Positions 21,936-32,277 of a stretch of 33,577 nucleotides of DNA are shown piece after piece. Both the position numbers and the translations under genes were made by a program. The stretch spans positions 1 to 33,577 of the IMG/VR virus record IMGVR_UViG_3300042868_009582. One strand, given 5' to 3'. Under the pieces are notes generated by a model. It was given only the letters and a program-made list of their open reading frames with translations. It was not told the origin of the DNA and searched no databases. Each line of letters opens with the position of its first letter. The stretch's first letter is position 1. The stretch comes from a virus.

Positions 21936-22487
21936 TTATTGAAAAGGGTTGTTTATAACTTTTTCTAAATGTTTGCGCATCCGTTTGATTTGTATGAACA
22001 CAGTGCTTTTACTTATTCCTATCTTATCTGCTAATTCTTGTAGTGTGTCATCTCCCATCCAATATAATTCATATAGTTTAGCTGATGTCCATAACTTTGT
22101 TCTTTGCAATCTTTTCAATTCTTGTAGGACTTCTTCATGTGACTTAACAATACTTTCGTCTAATTCATAATTATATTCTTCAAACGGGTCATCATGCGTT
22201 ATCTCTCCTACATACTTTACTCTATTTAATTTCTTTACTTTGTTTATCCATCTATGTTTTAGGAATGCCATTGCATACATTCTATTGTATGAGTCATGCC
22301 AAAATAGTTTAGGATGACATTTTTTAATTAGATATTCCCACAAATCAGCAACTAAGTCTTCAGACTCTTCTCTGTTCTTTGTGATGTTGTATGAGACCTG
22401 GTGTAACCAGACAGAACTATCTTTATAAAAGTTTTCTAATCTTCTATTACACTCAGTCTGCATACTACTAGTTAACTCATTAGACAT
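21936..22487 (-). CDS. Sigma-70-like / ECF-type transcription factor
   Basis: 183 residues. Residues about 20-90 resemble sigma region 2, with SEDLVADLWEYLIKK and a helix MAFLKHRWINKVKKLNRVKY. After an acidic linker, residues about 148-175 form a region-4-like helix-turn-helix (LQELADKIGISKSTVFIQIK). The spacing and size fit an ECF-like sigma factor or a sigma-derived phage regulator. It could redirect host RNA polymerase to late phage promoters, which would explain late genes lacking TAnnTTTG boxes. It overlaps the preceding gene by eight bases. Confidence 0.65.
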   Translation of the reverse strand: MSNELTSSMQTECNRRLENFYKDSSVWLHQVSYNITKNREESEDLVADLWEYLIKKCHPKLFWHDSYNRMYAMAFLKHRWINKVKKLNRVKYVGEITHDDPFEEYNYELDESIVKSHEEVLQELKRLQRTKLWTSAKLYELYWMGDDTLQELADKIGISKSTVFIQIKRMRKHLEKVINNPFQ

Positions 22488-23186: not shown

Positions 23187-23561
23187 TTAGTATTTGTAAT
23201 TTGGATGATTGGGTGATGCAGCTCCATATAAAACTCCTGCTGCTTTTCCTTTCTGCATGTTTTCATATCCTGTAACCAACTCTAAGTTATCTAAACGATT
23301 ATTCTTTTTGTCATGGTCTATATGATTTATTTGTAATCCTTTTGGTATCATACCATTAAAACATTCGTAAGTAAATCTATGATTAAGATACATAGATATT
23401 CTACCAGCTAACCTTAATGAGTAGTGATTATAACCTCTACCATGATTTACTTTTGCAAGTTCTTTTACTTTACCTGCCTTAAATGAATAAACATTACCTT
23501 CTTTGTCTGACCCGTAATCTGTAAATACTGGGTGTTTTTTTAATTCTAATTGTGTTGCCAT
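23187..23561 (-). CDS. HNH endonuclease
   Basis: 124 residues from the ATG at 23561. A longer in-frame start at 23609 is rejected because it falls on the promoter-like box at 23607-23614, while 23561 has the A-rich leader AACAACAAAAGAA typical of the neighbouring gene. The HNH core is MYLNHRFTYECFNG, then GLQINHIDHDKKNNRLDNLE (residues about 57-94), with NHIDH supplying the metal and catalytic residues and the usual C-terminal LVTGYENMQKGK. Free-standing HNH enzymes in phages are often homing endonucleases; a role in packaging is less likely, as it is far from the terminase. Confidence 0.8.
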   Translation of the reverse strand: MATQLELKKHPVFTDYGSDKEGNVYSFKAGKVKELAKVNHGRGYNHYSLRLAGRISMYLNHRFTYECFNGMIPKGLQINHIDHDKKNNRLDNLELVTGYENMQKGKAAGVLYGAASPNHPNYKY

Positions 23562-23606
23562 TTCTTTTGTTGTTGTTTGTATACTAATATATATCGTTTT
23601 TATTTT

Positions 23607-23614
23607 CAAACGTA
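23607..23614 (-). promoter_or_regulatory. Candidate -7 promoter box (TACGTTTG)
   Basis: Minus-strand TACGTTTG fits TAnnTTTG and lies 20 bp after the stop of the 56-residue gene and 46 bp before the HNH start. No -33 TTTG box at the expected spacing. Confidence 0.45.
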
Positions 23615-23634
23615 ATAGTATTTTTTTTAATATG

Positions 23635-23805
23635 TTATTTACAATGTTTTCTAATAAGATTTGAAACTAATCCTGCCATCTTATAACCATGATGGTCACA
23701 ATAAGCTTTTAGAGTTGTGTGCACATCTTTTGGTATCATTATCAAAGAATAGTTATCTTGATATTTGTTTTTCTTTGTTGGTTGTTTTGTTTGTTCTGTT
23801 GTCAT
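23635..23805 (-). CDS. Ribbon-helix-helix-like DNA-binding protein
   Basis: 56 residues from the ATG at 23805. After a basic, disordered start (TTEQTKQPTKKNKYQDN) comes YSLIMIPKDVHTTLKAYCDH, then HGYKMAGLVSNLIRKHCK: a beta strand followed by two helices, the layout of Arc/MetJ-type repressors. It lies between the replication-initiator-like gene and the HNH gene, under the early promoter, and may regulate that promoter. Its leader is AAACAAACAAAA. I judge the fold from pattern only. Confidence 0.6.
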   Translation of the reverse strand: MTTEQTKQPTKKNKYQDNYSLIMIPKDVHTTLKAYCDHHGYKMAGLVSNLIRKHCK

Positions 23806-23833: not shown

Positions 23834-24505
23834 TTATTGATTTAATTTAATTGTAATTGTTGTGTCTAATTCTTTTTGTTGTTCAACTGATAAATTTAAT
23901 TTAGCAAAGAATTTATCCCATCCTATTTCTGTTATATCATCATATATCTCATTATATTCACTTAAAGGTATTTCATAGTTTAATAATTGCTGATATAGTT
24001 TATATGCTACTCCATAACTTAATCCTTGTTCTATATCTTTATCATTGTTTTTATCTATATCAATATCTTTATCCTTGTCTTTAGTCCTTATGTAATCATT
24101 ATCTAATCCTTCAACAAGGGTTATATAAGGGTTATCTAACTCTTTATTAATGGTTGGTAAAACATTATCATTAGGTTGTATAATGTTATGTGATATCAGT
24201 AATTCTTTTGCAGATACTATTGCAGGAGTTTTAGAAGTAAAAAAGTTCTTATACTGAAACATAATAAACTTTGGTATAAACCATTTATCAGCTTTAATAT
24301 AAATTCTTTCTTTTAGATACTCTATAATTTCAGTATCAGTTCTTTCAGTTCCAGTTTGAAACTTTAATAATTTTAGATTTACTTTATACACACCTGCATG
24401 GTCGCAAGTATCTAAAATATAAATCCACACCAATTTCATATCCATTGGTAAATCCGTAAACCAACTATCGTTCCATTTAGTTGTGTCAGTTAATCTTTTA
24501 GCCAT
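23834..24505 (-). CDS. Replication-initiator-like protein
   Basis: 223 residues. The start AKRLTDTTKWNDSWFTDLPM followed by KLVWIYILDTCDHAGVYKVN is a winged-helix type N-terminal domain typical of phage replication organisers (DnaD/O-like) in Bacteroidota phages. A low-complexity acidic/basic Lys-Asp linker covers residues about 142-159, and a short C-terminal helical domain follows. It is the first gene after the early promoter candidate and the control region, a usual place for an initiator. No helicase or polymerase is present, so the phage would rely on host replication proteins. Confidence 0.7.
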   Translation of the reverse strand: MAKRLTDTTKWNDSWFTDLPMDMKLVWIYILDTCDHAGVYKVNLKLLKFQTGTERTDTEIIEYLKERIYIKADKWFIPKFIMFQYKNFFTSKTPAIVSAKELLISHNIIQPNDNVLPTINKELDNPYITLVEGLDNDYIRTKDKDKDIDIDKNNDKDIEQGLSYGVAYKLYQQLLNYEIPLSEYNEIYDDITEIGWDKFFAKLNLSVEQQKELDTTITIKLNQ

Positions 24506-24557
24506 ACTTTTTTTGTTTTTGTTGTTGTTTGTTTATGTAATATAGGATATTTTTTTT

Positions 24558-24574
24558 AATATACCAAATATATT
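24558..24574. repeat. Inverted repeat around early promoter box
   Basis: AATATA, five-base centre CCAAA, TATATT. The -7-like box of the early promoter lies inside it, so it could be an operator; the ribbon-helix-helix protein two genes downstream of the start is a possible ligand. In very AT-rich DNA a six-base arm can arise by chance. Confidence 0.35.
24565..24572 (-). promoter_or_regulatory. Candidate early promoter -7 box (TATATTTG)
   Basis: Minus-strand TATATTTG lies 60 bp upstream of the first early gene (start 24505) and is identical to the box at 9166-9173. The flanking 24510-24660 is strongly AT-rich, with many A and T tracts. No good -33 box was found. Confidence 0.5.
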
Positions 24575-24662
24575 TTTTAATATCTTTTATAATAATATAT
24601 ATAAACTAAAAAAAGAAAACGCAAAGAATTTATAAACTTTTTTTTTATTGTATGTTAAATTG

Positions 24663-24762
24663 TATAAGGATTAAAAAATACTCTGCAGTCATAAGACGTA
24701 ATTCGCACGAGTTCCTTATATTCTCAGACCGGAGTTTTCTTGCCATCTCTCCGGTCTTTTTT
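24663..24762 (+). ncRNA. Candidate structured small RNA on the plus strand
   Basis: TATAAGGA (24663-24670) pairs perfectly with TCCTTATA (24713-24720). Directly inside, ACTCTGC (24680-24686) pairs with GCA-C-GAGT (24705-24712) with one bulged C, and a GTC-ATAA-GAC hairpin lies at 24688-24697. This is followed immediately by the plus-strand terminator at 24726-24762. The three-level nested pairing plus terminator, in a gap without minus-strand genes, supports a transcribed RNA of roughly 100 nt. It is not a tRNA: there is no T-arm consensus and no acceptor stem. The promoter is unclear; TAAATTGT just upstream is a poor -7 match. Confidence 0.55.
24726..24762 (+). terminator. Plus-strand intrinsic terminator
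   Basis: AGACCGGAG (24726-24734), 14-base loop, CTCCGGTCT (24749-24757), then T to 24762. It is GC-rich against an AT-rich background. No T run follows in the minus direction, so it acts on plus-strand transcripts, although no plus-strand gene is otherwise apparent. Confidence 0.8.
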
Positions 24763-24770
24763 ATGCACAC

Positions 24771-24796
24771 AAAAAACCCCGATATTTCTATCAGGG
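24771..24796 (-). terminator. Minus-strand terminator closing the tape-measure operon
   Basis: The minus strand reads CCCTGATA, loop GAAA, TATCGGGG, then six T. One pair is G-U in the minus-strand RNA but a C-A mismatch in the plus-strand RNA, which fixes the direction. It lies 25 bp after the last small gene (stop 24822). Confidence 0.85.
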
Positions 24797-24821
24797 TTAA
24801 AATGGTTATTCTTCGTATACT

Positions 24822-24956
24822 TTACCTACCTTGTCCTCTATATTGTTTTTTCTTTGGAGTATGTTTATTAAAAGATTTCTGCCCATTTAATTGTCCGGAC
24901 TTTCTTGTCCCAAATGAAATCTTATTATTACTTCCAGCTGATTTAATCTTTGCCAA
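24822..24956 (-). CDS. Small basic phage protein ending YRGQGR
   Basis: 44 residues if started at TTG 24956, inside the end of the lipoprotein gene. The sequence is strongly basic (GTRKSGQLNGQKSFNKHTPK) and ends KKKQYRGQGR, an ending I recognise from small basic proteins of many environmental phages, function unknown. No ATG is available in frame, so a TTG start coupled to the upstream stop is proposed. The terminator follows 25 bp later. Confidence 0.5.
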   Translation of the reverse strand: MAKIKSAGSNNKISFGTRKSGQLNGQKSFNKHTPKKKQYRGQGR

Positions 24957-25110
24957 TTGTATCTACTTTTAATGTGTCCACTTTTACTTCAGTTGAGTCT
25001 ATTTTCATTTCACTTTTTGGTGCAGTTCCACATCCCCATATACAAAATGCAAGTAATGTTATTGCAATAAATATTGTAAATATCTTTTGTGTTTTAGTTA
25101 ATTTTTTCAT
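24943..25110 (-). CDS. Small predicted lipoprotein, possible lysis component
   Basis: 55 residues. Basic start (MKKLTKTQK), hydrophobic core IFTIFIAITLLAFCIWG, then Cys27 followed by a small polar domain of about 28 residues with VKVDTLKVDTIGK. This resembles a lipoprotein signal with a loose lipobox (IWGC). A short lipoprotein near the end of a late phage operon could be an outer-membrane spanin subunit (Rz1-like), but no partner is clear; the preceding coiled-coil protein lacks a membrane helix. Its ATG overlaps the previous stop (ATGA). Confidence 0.6.
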   Translation of the reverse strand: MKKLTKTQKIFTIFIAITLLAFCIWGCGTAPKSEMKIDSTEVKVDTLKVDTIGKD

Positions 25111-28942: not shown

Positions 28943-29746
28943 CTAAAATAGTGGAGAGAAATACTTTTTATAGCATTCTACATCAATGACATTTTCCTGT
29001 GATTTAAGGAACTCATAGTATTTTTCATATACTTTATCTAACTCTAATTTATCTAACGGAATTAAGGGGTCTGTGCAATAATCACCACTACTCTTCTTAT
29101 GGTTTTCAAAGTTATCTGGATTATTTATATCTCCTGATTGTTTATGTCCTGCAACTTCTGCAGGGTCTGACCAATTAAAGCAGTATGATGGAATATATTT
29201 TTGGTTATATTCATCTAATTGCCTTTCATCTCTCAATCTTGTATACCAACTTAAACCTTCATAACCGGTCATATCTTCTCTAAAGCCAATCTCTTTAATT
29301 CTATTCATCTTTACAATTACAGATGCTTCTAAAGTATTTTGACAAAACTCTACTCTATCTCCAGTTGCAAATAAACTTTTCTGTGGTTTCCATGCATCTT
29401 TACCATTTTCAGTAATACCTTCTACAGCTTGTTCAATATGATAAGGTAAATAAATATCGTCATCATCTGCTAACATAAAGTAATCACCAGTTGTATGAGT
29501 TACTGCATCTCTACATATCTCACCTCTGTTTTTATACTTCTCGCCAGTTAAATAGTTTATATCATTATTTACTACAATAATAGTTGGGTCATCAAAACCT
29601 AATTCGTATGGGTATTCCATATCTGTATTGAATATAATCAACTCTTTATTTGGATATGTTTGTGCATGATATTGTGCAACTATTCTTTTCACACAATAAA
29701 ACCTTCTATATGAAGTGCATACAAATGAAACTTTCTTATCTACCAT
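28943..29746 (-). CDS. Family 2-type (GT-A) glycosyltransferase
   Basis: 267 residues. It starts VSFVCTSYRRFYCVKRIVAQ, the nucleotide-sugar binding strand-loop-helix of GT2-type enzymes, then YPNKELIIFNTD, DAVTHTTGDYFMLADDDD and IYLPYHIEQAVEG, with the metal-binding Asp cluster at 94-97. WYTRLRD and a C-terminal domain follow. It transfers a sugar from an activated donor; donor and acceptor cannot be read from sequence. Last of four overlapping genes (seven-base overlap with the preceding one). The likely acceptor, by neighbourhood, is a phage virion protein or host envelope glycan. Confidence 0.8.
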   Translation of the reverse strand: MVDKKVSFVCTSYRRFYCVKRIVAQYHAQTYPNKELIIFNTDMEYPYELGFDDPTIIVVNNDINYLTGEKYKNRGEICRDAVTHTTGDYFMLADDDDIYLPYHIEQAVEGITENGKDAWKPQKSLFATGDRVEFCQNTLEASVIVKMNRIKEIGFREDMTGYEGLSWYTRLRDERQLDEYNQKYIPSYCFNWSDPAEVAGHKQSGDINNPDNFENHKKSSGDYCTDPLIPLDKLELDKVYEKYYEFLKSQENVIDVECYKKYFSPLF

Positions 29747-30726
29747 ATTTTGCCTTTTTTGAATTTCTTTATAAAGTAATCATCACAATCTAATAAGTTG
29801 TGTTTTTCTAAATTTGCTGTAATAATCTCTCTGTGGTCATTTCTTCCTAATCCTTCATCTACTATAAAACTTCTTTCATCACCTTCAAATCTTTTTCTAT
29901 TCCATTTTTCAGCAATTATATCAAGCTTTCTTTCTATAAAATCATATTCATCAATCCATCCTTTATATCCTTCTGTTGATAACATCTCAGTAAACTTATC
30001 ATTTTGGAATGCGGTCACTCTTGTAGAGGATTGATTACTACTGCCTCTCTTAATTGTAGTGATATCATAATCTTCAACTAGGTTATTTAGGTTATTAACC
30101 CAATCCTGTTTTAGATGACATACTCCTGTAAGTTTTAATCCGTATTTGCTTCCCATCATTGTTCCCATCATAGCACTTAAAGACATTAATGTTGCTTCAC
30201 CTCTTTGTTTTGCTAAACGAGGAGAAACGTGTATAATTTCGTAGTTCTTTATGTTTGGGAAGGTAGGTATCCATTTCTTAAATAAAGTCCAATCAGGGTT
30301 ATAATTGTGGTCTTTAATTTGATTGTATGGGTCATCACCTATATGCATATGAACACCATCTTTAGTTTTTAAGTCAGGTGTAGAACAATCTGCAATAACT
30401 AAATTAAATGGTTGTTGTATAATTCTACTATTTACAGCTAATGCAAGTAAACATTGTTCAACTCTATTGCAAGATGTCATTATCAAACAATTCTCATCAA
30501 CATATTTTGTCTGAGGATATTTTAGATTTGCACCTTCGTTAACTTCAAAGAAATGTTCTACTCCGTTATCCTCAATCCAAATATGTAGTTTCTTTTCAAT
30601 ACCTGGTTTAGTATCTGTTAAATAATGATTAGATGCATTCAAAGATAATTTATCCTCTCTTACAAATAATTTATATACTTTGTCTAAAACATCTACACCA
30701 CCCCATTCTGCTTTAGTTATTTTCAT
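29740..30726 (-). CDS. Putative glycosyltransferase-associated protein with N-terminal accessory domain
   Basis: 328 residues. Residues 1-65 form a small separate domain (MKITKAEWGGVDVLDKVYKL, then KPGIEKKLHIWIEDN) resembling short beta-sandwich domains attached to bacterial glycan-related proteins. Residues about 75-328 start TKYVDENCLIMTSCNRVEQC, a GT-A-like opening, and continue with VIADCSTPDLKTKDGVHMHI. No canonical DxD was pinned down. Overlap with the methyltransferase gene (14 bases) and the GT2 gene (7 bases) ties it to the cassette. I infer a sugar transfer or glycan modification role, moderately. Confidence 0.6.
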   Translation of the reverse strand: MKITKAEWGGVDVLDKVYKLFVREDKLSLNASNHYLTDTKPGIEKKLHIWIEDNGVEHFFEVNEGANLKYPQTKYVDENCLIMTSCNRVEQCLLALAVNSRIIQQPFNLVIADCSTPDLKTKDGVHMHIGDDPYNQIKDHNYNPDWTLFKKWIPTFPNIKNYEIIHVSPRLAKQRGEATLMSLSAMMGTMMGSKYGLKLTGVCHLKQDWVNNLNNLVEDYDITTIKRGSSNQSSTRVTAFQNDKFTEMLSTEGYKGWIDEYDFIERKLDIIAEKWNRKRFEGDERSFIVDEGLGRNDHREIITANLEKHNLLDCDDYFIKKFKKGKIW

Positions 30727-31309
30727 TCTTAAACTTTATTAACATGCTACCTCTGAATGTTGGAATATATAATCCCCATTCAATTTTAGTTGTATTGTGT
30801 CTCATAAAATCGTTAGTAGAATTACGAACATCCATATGATAGTCGTAATCATCTAATATTACATAATTGCAATTACCCATTGCCAACTCTAAATCATGTA
30901 TCTTACACTTATATGAGTGACAACCATCAATTGAAATTAAATCGTAAAAACGGGGTAATTGTGTTGCAATTTGAGAGTCTTGTGTAAGTAAATCCCATTT
31001 TGTATCACCATTATAGTATTTTTGGATATGTTTTTTAGTTTCCTCATTATTATTACCATAGGTTTCTAAATCTAATCCTAATGCACTTTCCATCTTTGGA
31101 TTGCCTAATAAAGTTGGTAAAAAAGAGAATCCAAACCTAACACCTATTTCTAAGAATGATTTTGGTTTAATGGTTTTACTAATTGCATAATACCATTCAA
31201 AACAATTACCACTAAAAACGTAATCGTAACTATCGTATTTAGTAAAAAATTCAGATGGGATTATATCGTGAATTGAATCCGGTTTGTTCTTAAATAATTT
31301 TTCTATCAT
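30713..31309 (-). CDS. SAM-dependent methyltransferase of the glycan cassette
   Basis: 198 residues. SFLEIGVRFGFS (residues 52-62) is the SAM-binding motif I loop of class I methyltransferases. YDLISIDGCHSY (122-133) and NYVILDDYDYH (148-158) match the acidic strand positions of the Methyltransf_24-type group, often associated with glycan or small-molecule O-methylation. It overlaps the upstream 323-residue gene by four bases (ATGA) and the downstream gene by 14, so it is co-translated with glycosyltransferases and probably caps or modifies sugars. Confidence 0.75.
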   Translation of the reverse strand: MIEKLFKNKPDSIHDIIPSEFFTKYDSYDYVFSGNCFEWYYAISKTIKPKSFLEIGVRFGFSFLPTLLGNPKMESALGLDLETYGNNNEETKKHIQKYYNGDTKWDLLTQDSQIATQLPRFYDLISIDGCHSYKCKIHDLELAMGNCNYVILDDYDYHMDVRNSTNDFMRHNTTKIEWGLYIPTFRGSMLIKFKNENN

Positions 31310-32277
31310 AACAGTTTTGTATTTTTAGCAGCTTCACATATTGCTAACCAATACTGATATGATGCTGTATTGTTTAATAGAGTAAGTGTTACATCATACG
31401 GATATTTTTCCATATAATCTGCTTTATAAAATAATTGTTGTTTGTTGTGAATTACACCTGCATTGTGAAATATATTTTTTCTATGAAACTCTTCTTCTTG
31501 TGATGTTGCCCAACTAAAATCAAAGTTTTCATGACAGATAGTTTGATTTCCTCTTAACCAACCGTTCCATAATACTGCCCACATATCTGCACACCATATT
31601 TGTAACTCGTGATAGTTTGGATTGGCTTCTTTCTTTATTACATTCATTTCTGTAATTTCTTTGAACAATCTTTCACAATCCTTTTCTACTTTATCCCAAA
31701 AACTAAAATCAATATTCTTCATTAGGTATTGTGCACCGATATTAGCTAATTCATTAAGTTCAACTTCACCTTTAGATATGCCAACAATCTCACACATTTT
31801 ATCTAAGATATCTTGACCTTTAGATTTAATGTAAGTATGTCCTATATACCAACGAGTATCTGAACCATACCACTTTTTATCACCAATCATAATATTAGTA
31901 ATCCATTCAGTAGGTGGCTTTGTAAAAAGAATATCACAATCATGATAAAAGATTGCATCATCTTTTAATTCAGGATACTTTTCCCAATGTTGCTTTAAGA
32001 TGTTAGGACGAATTGAACTAATATAATGTTTAGTTTCTCTTGTATCATCGTAGAAAAAGAAACGTGCTGCATACCCATTAGCTAGTTTTATCCAACTTTC
32101 AGGTATTACACCATCTATTTTCCAACAAACGATATCAACCTGATTTAAGTTAATACCATGTTTTCTGAAGTTAGTTAGTAAAACTTCTACTTGCCATGCG
32201 TAATATTCATTTGCCGGTTGTGCACAAATAAATCGTAATTGTTTTTGTGGAGTATCTCCAATGTAAATTGATGCCAT
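31306..32277 (-). CDS. Putative GT-A glycosyltransferase (DxD type)
   Basis: 323 residues. QLRFICAQPANEYYAWQVEV starts a Rossmann-like nucleotide-sugar domain. The metal-binding DxD is DCD at 113-115 in AIFYHDCDILFTKPP, followed by YGSDTRWYIGHTYIKSKG and later HNAGVIHNKQQLFYKADYME. This layout recalls glycosyltransferases acting on protein hydroxyl groups (for example hydroxyproline arabinosyltransferase-like enzymes), which is notable next to Thr/Ser-rich tail proteins, but the resemblance is by eye. First gene of the cassette, 52 bp after the stop of the modular adhesin; the gap contains TGTTAAATAATAAAGG. Confidence 0.7.
   Translation of the reverse strand: MASIYIGDTPQKQLRFICAQPANEYYAWQVEVLLTNFRKHGINLNQVDIVCWKIDGVIPESWIKLANGYAARFFFYDDTRETKHYISSIRPNILKQHWEKYPELKDDAIFYHDCDILFTKPPTEWITNIMIGDKKWYGSDTRWYIGHTYIKSKGQDILDKMCEIVGISKGEVELNELANIGAQYLMKNIDFSFWDKVEKDCERLFKEITEMNVIKKEANPNYHELQIWCADMWAVLWNGWLRGNQTICHENFDFSWATSQEEEFHRKNIFHNAGVIHNKQQLFYKADYMEKYPYDVTLTLLNNTASYQYWLAICEAAKNTKLL

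Follow-up and report, generated by a model that had tools for sequence, protein, structure and literature searches.

A conserved plus-strand RNA of uncultured phages whose terminator loop probably targets the start of an adjoining endonuclease gene

RNA element and endonuclease gene in the window

The stretch analyzed here (the window) is the virus record IMGVR_UViG_3300042868_009582 of IMG/VR, 33,577 nucleotides (nt) in length, in which a small structured RNA is predicted on the plus strand at 24664–24766 and an HNH_3 endonuclease gene, its proposed target, lies on the minus strand at 23187–23561. The extent of the RNA, scaffold and terminator together, is that of a covariance model match (model R2, E 1.3e-14, 101.8 bits), and its covariation was followed on alignment A8. 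The scaffold (24664–24719, plus strand), defined by folding and covariation, holds three stems. P1 is formed by 24664–24670 with 24713–24719, and an extra outer pair (T24663–A24720) brings it to 8 pairs; P2 is formed by 24680–24686 with 24705–24712 and has one bulged base; P3 is a hairpin at 24688–24697 (24688–24690 with 24695–24697). According to alignment A8, positions 24671–24679 are an unpaired conserved core, UUAAAAAAU (GAUUAAAnAAUACU when the flanking stem bases are included). Six bases after the scaffold begins the stem of an intrinsic terminator (24726–24762, plus strand), which has 9 base pairs (bp; 24726–24734 with 24749–24757), a 14-nt loop and a T run at 24758–24762. The loop (24735–24748) is the putative antisense segment, in which UUGCCAU (24740–24746) provides the complementarity to the HNH gene start. 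The promoter-like TATGTTAAA element at 24651–24659 on the plus strand is the counterpart of the TAnnTTTGTTA or TATGTTA of relatives and is weak in the window itself.

The nested stems, the small hairpin and the one-way terminator noticed in an earlier inspection of the letters alone (the sequence-only reading) all lie where that reading had put them on the plus strand. Folding of 24655–24765 gave z = –4.4, with none of 200 shuffles equally good. The minus strand of the same segment folds equally well (z = –4.7), so the strand is not decided by folding alone. The plus direction follows instead from the T run, which occurs on this strand only, and from the terminator, T run and upstream promoter-like element that are kept on the plus strand in relatives. 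A simple terminator scan had missed the plus-strand terminator because it allowed loops of 3–8 only; the same scan placed a separate terminator on the minus strand at 24775–24798, which belongs to the operon to the right and not to the RNA. The long open reading frames (ORFs) of the window are on the minus strand, as the sequence-only reading had said of the genes. A 106-amino-acid (aa) ORF at 24652–24972 on the plus strand crosses the RNA; its coding reading was rejected, since an ORF runs through the RNA in just 7 of 38 distinct relatives. A search for transfer RNAs gave none.

The HNH gene encodes 124 aa from the ATG at 23561 and matches Pfam HNH_3 at 3.7e-15 (4.8e-15 for the longer ORF with a TTG start), and by this domain its product is assigned to the homing-type HNH endonucleases. 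The proposed pairing site is AUGGCAA at its start codon (23555–23561, minus strand), which would form 7 bp with the loop; with extra pairs the duplex is calculated at –11.4 kcal/mol.

A conserved RNA family

Relatives were fetched via the terminase (19 loci) and via the neighbouring Peptidase_S78_2 protein (80 loci), and further ones by RNA pattern scans. A model built from the window alone (R1) found divergent relatives directly at E below 1e-4 (for example L021 at 3.5e-9, L041 at 4.2e-9 and L004 at 1.6e-8), and two more model rounds led to 42 members, 38 of them distinct. Identical RNAs (L109, L112, L115) and duplicate loci were dropped, as were second nuclease genes lying farther from the RNA in L146, L159, L133 and L137. 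In the alignment of these 38, changes on both sides were seen at 24 of 26 base pairs and 95.1% of the cells were paired; the covariation score of 0.954 exceeds that of shuffled alignments (0.233) and of slid versions (0.194 or less). With the 14 distinct relatives used earlier, 23 of 26 pairs had changed on both sides and the score was 0.872. Fitting of the later alignments to the R1 structure inflates covariation in favour of that structure; the structure is secure nevertheless, given how large the effect is and how the slid versions score. The sequence-only reading had proposed a free-standing structured RNA with its own terminator and had named loss of the stems in homologous regions as the observation that would count against it; stems and terminator are conserved in the relatives. 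The predicted RNA at 24664–24766 thus belongs to a conserved family without a match in Rfam. No Rfam model matched in the window at gathering level, HEARO (HEARO or OMEGA RNA with IscB) and the phi29-type packaging RNA included. A permissive search of L001, L041 and L030 returned sub-threshold matches only, located outside the RNA or on the opposite strand; HEARO had no match covering the RNA up to E 5, and the packaging RNA model had none.

The order of elements in relatives is the promoter-like TAnnTTTGTTA or TATGTTA, a gap of 7–20 nt, P1, unpaired GAUUAAAnAAUACU or CUUAAUnAAUACUG, P2, P3 and the second strand of P2, after which come a GUUC-type end, the second strand of P1, an AT-rich linker and the terminator. 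The –7 element resembles the sigma-A box TAnnTTTG of Flavobacterium (PMC9723704). The loops of the scaffold are nearly invariant, and the stem and loop of the terminator are highly variable. Three of the pattern scans demanded TGCCAT or TGYCATY, which partly builds in conservation of the loop and leaves the loop/target shuffling described below unaffected. Variant RNAs with other scaffolds occur in L038 (7007–7120, minus strand), L047 (10626–10751, plus strand) and L056 (5651–5786, plus strand); their loops match gene starts over 10–11 nt, and the RNA of L038 has two different antisense loops. The 62.6-kb contig IMGVR_UViG_3300043395_001957 (L027, L034, L144, L170, L171) has two RNA copies and two Peptidase_S78_2 genes and may be a chimera or a fusion of two related genomes.

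Complementarity of the terminator loop to the nuclease start

An endonuclease gene is present in 41 of 42 RNA loci, the other (L160) having none on its 4.3-kb contig. The partner is a GIY-YIG protein with a zinc finger or else an HNH_3 protein, the latter in some cases carrying NUMOD4 as well (both domains were matched in L052 and L136). In the GIY-YIG cluster, SegE_GIY-YIG was matched at 7.7e-4 in 1 of 12 members and GIY-YIG in 2 of 12, below the Pfam cut-off where shown. The profile of this partner matches I-TevI (1mk0 and 1ln0) at E 0.0041 and 0.048, and a protein model (predicted local distance difference test score, pLDDT, 89) was aligned to the catalytic domain of I-TevI over 89 residues with Z 12.2 and a root-mean-square deviation of 2.3. 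Foldseek alone left the model unmatched at E 0.001. By profile and model alignment together, the target in many relatives has the GIY-YIG catalytic fold and motif.

When gene starts were compared with the loops, the loop was seen in most relatives to read as the endonuclease gene's start region in reverse complement. The match is 11 nt in L106 (AACCGAUGGCA), 10 nt in L042 (AAAAUGGCAC) and 9 nt in L053 (AAAUGGAAC); in L005 it is 10 nt directly upstream of the nuclease AUG (AAUGACAAAA), and 8 nt upstream of the AUG in both L070 (AAUAGCAA) and L060 (ACAAUGAC). The longest perfect run has a median length of 8 and overlaps the AUG in 30 of 41 loci. By merging identical pairs, these loci were reduced to 35 distinct loop/target pairs for shuffling, and the mean energy of the own pairs was –11.16 kcal/mol as compared with –8.42 (standard deviation 0.40) for shuffled pairs, with no shuffle in 20,000 as good. 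Shuffling within start type (mean –9.67) or within nuclease family (–8.53) likewise gave none in 20,000. As a control for kinship, ten gene groups that share the relatedness of the phages were tested alike: GIY-YIG reached z = –5.6 (0 of 10,000) and HNH –3.2 (6 of 10,000), and the eight others fell between –1.5 and +1.6. Within genomes, the nuclease start paired at a mean of –11.2 as compared with –6.7 for other genes, and in 15 of 35 loci it outranked all other gene starts (2.2 expected). Along the nuclease gene, the segment at the start paired best in 16 of 41 loci (2.3 expected).

Closely related scaffolds give the same picture. Where scaffolds were at least 90% identical while loop and target differed, the own target was the better one in all eight disjoint pairs (sign test 0.004). 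At lower scaffold identity, own and swapped pairings stood at 9:1 with one tie (at least 80%), 11:3 with two ties (70%) and 15:5 (all). L114 and L161 have scaffolds that are letter-identical over the aligned columns and carry different loops, each of which fits its own nuclease start.

Furthermore, viral contigs were searched with a GIY-YIG profile blind to the RNA, and 58 of the 80 loci obtained were then scanned with model R3. Of 26 loci whose GIY-YIG match was full-length, 18 had the RNA at E below 1e-6. The eight misses comprise two loci cut close upstream (L181, L187), three with weak matches (L196–L198) and three with none (L182, L188, L189). The 32 other loci had no RNA at that threshold, and within L198 and L199–L230 weak matches occurred in L198 and L200 only. 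Six new members (L176, L178, L180, L184, L185, L186), absent from the earlier alignments, had an own pairing of –10.95 as compared with –6.72, the best of 720 permutations. At the level of sequence, then, loop and nuclease start co-vary across the family, which supports the suggestion of the sequence-only reading that the RNA may be regulatory.

Gene surroundings

The RNA usually adjoins a replication-type gene. In the window this neighbour (23834–24505, minus strand) encodes 223 aa and itself matches nothing in Pfam or PHROG; it sits in a slot (cluster c2) that in relatives holds Lin1244_N, DUF6291 and DUF1376 proteins and an unnamed N-terminal family, as if replication-type genes had been swapped there. 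This agrees with the "early control region" of the sequence-only reading. Its ideas of a host-interfering or a replication-priming RNA found no support; relative to the replication-type gene, both the side on which the RNA lies and its orientation vary among loci. In arrangement A, to which the window belongs, the RNA is divergent from the replication-type gene, and the nuclease is on the opposite strand 581–1813 nt from the RNA start (1102 in the window). In the second arrangement (18 loci), the RNA comes just after the replication-type gene, and an endonuclease gene of the same strand follows 69–98 nt later. A conserved promoter-like block, TTTGGTAATATCAGnAATTAnTCGTATATTAC, stands there between the RNA terminator and the nuclease ATG, and RNA and nuclease are therefore predicted to be separate transcripts. 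The leader or promoter region of the HNH gene (23565–23636, minus strand) resembles the region upstream of the gene at 24505 (24517–24586; about 74% over 76 nt by blastn), as if it had been copied between the two genes.

Among other genes of the window, 21936–22487 (minus strand) has a sigma-factor-like profile match (phrog_1740, 2.3e-7) and is kept in the same operon of relatives; its product might recognise the promoter-like elements of the phage. Glycosyltransferase-like (Glycos_transf_2, 3e-7) and methyltransferase-like (Methyltransf_24, 2.8e-6) genes lie at 28943–32277 on the minus strand.

Distribution and probable hosts

In the phage collection, blastn of an RNA-plus-nuclease region and tblastn of the GIY-YIG protein gave no real relative, and hosts are therefore inferred. 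The nearest cultured phages by protein, at low identity, infect Nonlabens, Flavobacterium, Bacteroides and Phocaeicola, so it is probable that the uncultured phages with this RNA infect Bacteroidota. None of 395 genomes on the Bacteroidota side had the RNA, a count that is uninformative on distribution because merely 10 candidates were scored per genome. Scans of genome contigs gave no relative by one scan and three pattern matches (L121–L123) by another, of which L122 lies inside a coding gene. Six named phage records (L124–L129) had no RNA match at the threshold used, with weak matches of E 2–5 in L124 and L127.

Proposed function and alternatives

We consider it likely that this phage-encoded RNA is an antisense small RNA (sRNA) acting in trans, that it blocks translation of the adjoining endonuclease and that its loop changes with the nuclease. 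It would consist of two modules, a conserved P1-P2-P3 scaffold with the invariant unpaired core and a terminator hairpin with a seed loop of 12–20 nt. Held open on this hairpin, the loop would pair with the start-codon region of the GIY-YIG or HNH_3 messenger RNA (mRNA), and the duplex would prevent ribosome binding or initiation and so keep the nuclease low. Bacteroidota initiate translation largely without a Shine-Dalgarno sequence, and covering the AUG itself would thus be a natural translation block. When the nuclease in the slot is replaced, the loop would be replaced accordingly. The benefit could be the limiting of self-damage or the silencing of the nuclease of a co-infecting relative. 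That the RNA is transcribed, that it pairs inside the cell, that the effect is repression and not activation, and what the benefit would be are all inferred from the sequences. More tentatively, the RNA may be a re-programmable module: as unrelated homing-type endonucleases succeed one another in the slot, the terminator loop would be rewritten to the start codon of the current one, which would protect the phage from its own nuclease and silence the matching nuclease of a co-infecting relative.

Several findings weigh against nuclease control as the function. In the window, the match of the loop to the HNH start is modest (7 bp), ranks second of 39 gene starts and is not unique, and the 8-nt AGAUGGCA is also present about 120 nt upstream of the HNH start. 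The contrast between the window and L004 prefers the swapped pairing by 3.2 kcal/mol. Single matches are weak because AUGGCA and AUGACA are common gene starts, and the case rests on covariation. The nuclease start is not top-ranked in 20 of 35 loci, and its match is poor or absent in L130/L138, L131/L141, L004, L012 and L041 (a partial gene). Pairing with the nuclease also leaves the fixed core of the scaffold unexplained. A search of the rest of the window for long complements to the loop in cis led to rejection of that idea (the longest other matches are 9 nt, none at gene starts), and a second pairing region in the window's scaffold gave a best run of 7 nt, nothing notable.

The RNA could instead be an early-region regulator with several targets, whose loop blocks phage starts of the AUGGC or AUGAC type, that of the replication-type gene included, the nuclease being merely the commonest. 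L131/L141 and L130/L138 pair best with the replication-type start (–16.3 and –14.7), the loops of L134, L135 and L042 fit both genes, and the variant RNAs of L047 (11 nt) and L056 (11 nt) fit the replication-type gene, while the two loops of L038 fit different genes. These fits and variants mean that the function may exceed nuclease control in some lineages. As a general account we find this reading unlikely, the cluster of replication-type genes being without a loop/target signal (z –0.4), unlike both nuclease families. It is about equally doubtful that the pair is a type I toxin-antitoxin module in the strict sense, a stronger form of the proposed antisense control in which the nuclease is toxic to host or phage and the RNA is the antitoxin. 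Free-standing homing-type nucleases are, to our knowledge, not usually toxins of the host. Such a module would account for the predicted separate transcripts side by side and for antisense pairing at the start codon, and the nucleases SymE and RalR are known type I toxins (PMC4147584).

A role as a structural or host-directed RNA (packaging, replication primer, host message), with the nuclease match secondary, we regard as improbable. The fixed unpaired core could bind a protein or another RNA, and the element adjoins a replication-type gene; it matches nothing in Rfam, its position and orientation differ between lineages, and the variable loop follows the nuclease. Least probable is a cis-acting leader or attenuator of a downstream gene, despite the 18 loci in which the RNA lies 69–98 nt upstream of a same-strand nuclease. 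Even there the RNA and the nuclease gene are set apart by a strong terminator and a distinct promoter-like block; in arrangement A, the window included, the nuclease is distant and on the opposite strand, with no plus-strand gene following. A riboswitch was rejected likewise, for want of a regulated gene directly downstream on the same strand in the window or the other opposite-strand loci.

Selfish endonucleases are widespread in phages, and how phages restrain them is little known. If antisense control of the nuclease is correct, Bacteroidota phages would possess a natural scaffold-plus-seed silencer in which one loop is rewritten and the rest is fixed; we know of few RNA regulators of phage genes in Bacteroidota. 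The rule that the loop is the reverse complement of a start region can be read from sequence and would predict targets directly.

Comparison with known systems

A literature search, with subscription papers and preprints mostly outside its coverage, gave no account of this RNA family, nor of any antisense RNA acting in trans on the start of a phage nuclease of the GIY-YIG or HNH type. The target proteins carry the same domains as free-standing homing endonucleases (I-TevI/Seg-like GIY-YIG; NUMOD4-HNH). The control known for free-standing homing endonuclease genes of phages works through hairpins in their own mRNA, whereas a separate RNA is proposed here. P22 sar and P1/P7 c4 of temperate phages are small phage RNAs that block translation of a phage gene, as is proposed for the present RNA; they differ in having other targets, no known shared structure and no mobile scaffold with a changing seed. 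In cyanophage S-PM2, CfrI, linked to F-CphI, is a phage antisense RNA beside a homing endonuclease gene (PMC12197685). It is described as antisense to psbA in the psbA-endonuclease intergenic region, and that review's passage on it mentions no conserved scaffold with a variable loop. There is also a likeness to RalR/RalA of the rac prophage and SymE/SymR of E. coli, in which an sRNA beside a nuclease gene pairs with the mRNA and stops translation (PMC4147584). Conserved elements predict that the phage RNA is also encoded apart with its own promoter and terminator, and its complementarity to the mRNA start is found family-wide through covariation and is modest in the window. These features suggest a mode of action like that of a type I antitoxin whose partner is a nuclease. 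RalA and SymR are each a single pair-specific antisense, SymR being cis-encoded and RalA pairing inside the coding region in an Hfq-dependent manner. The phage RNA, unlike either, combines a conserved scaffold with a loop that is exchangeable and fits nucleases of two unrelated families.
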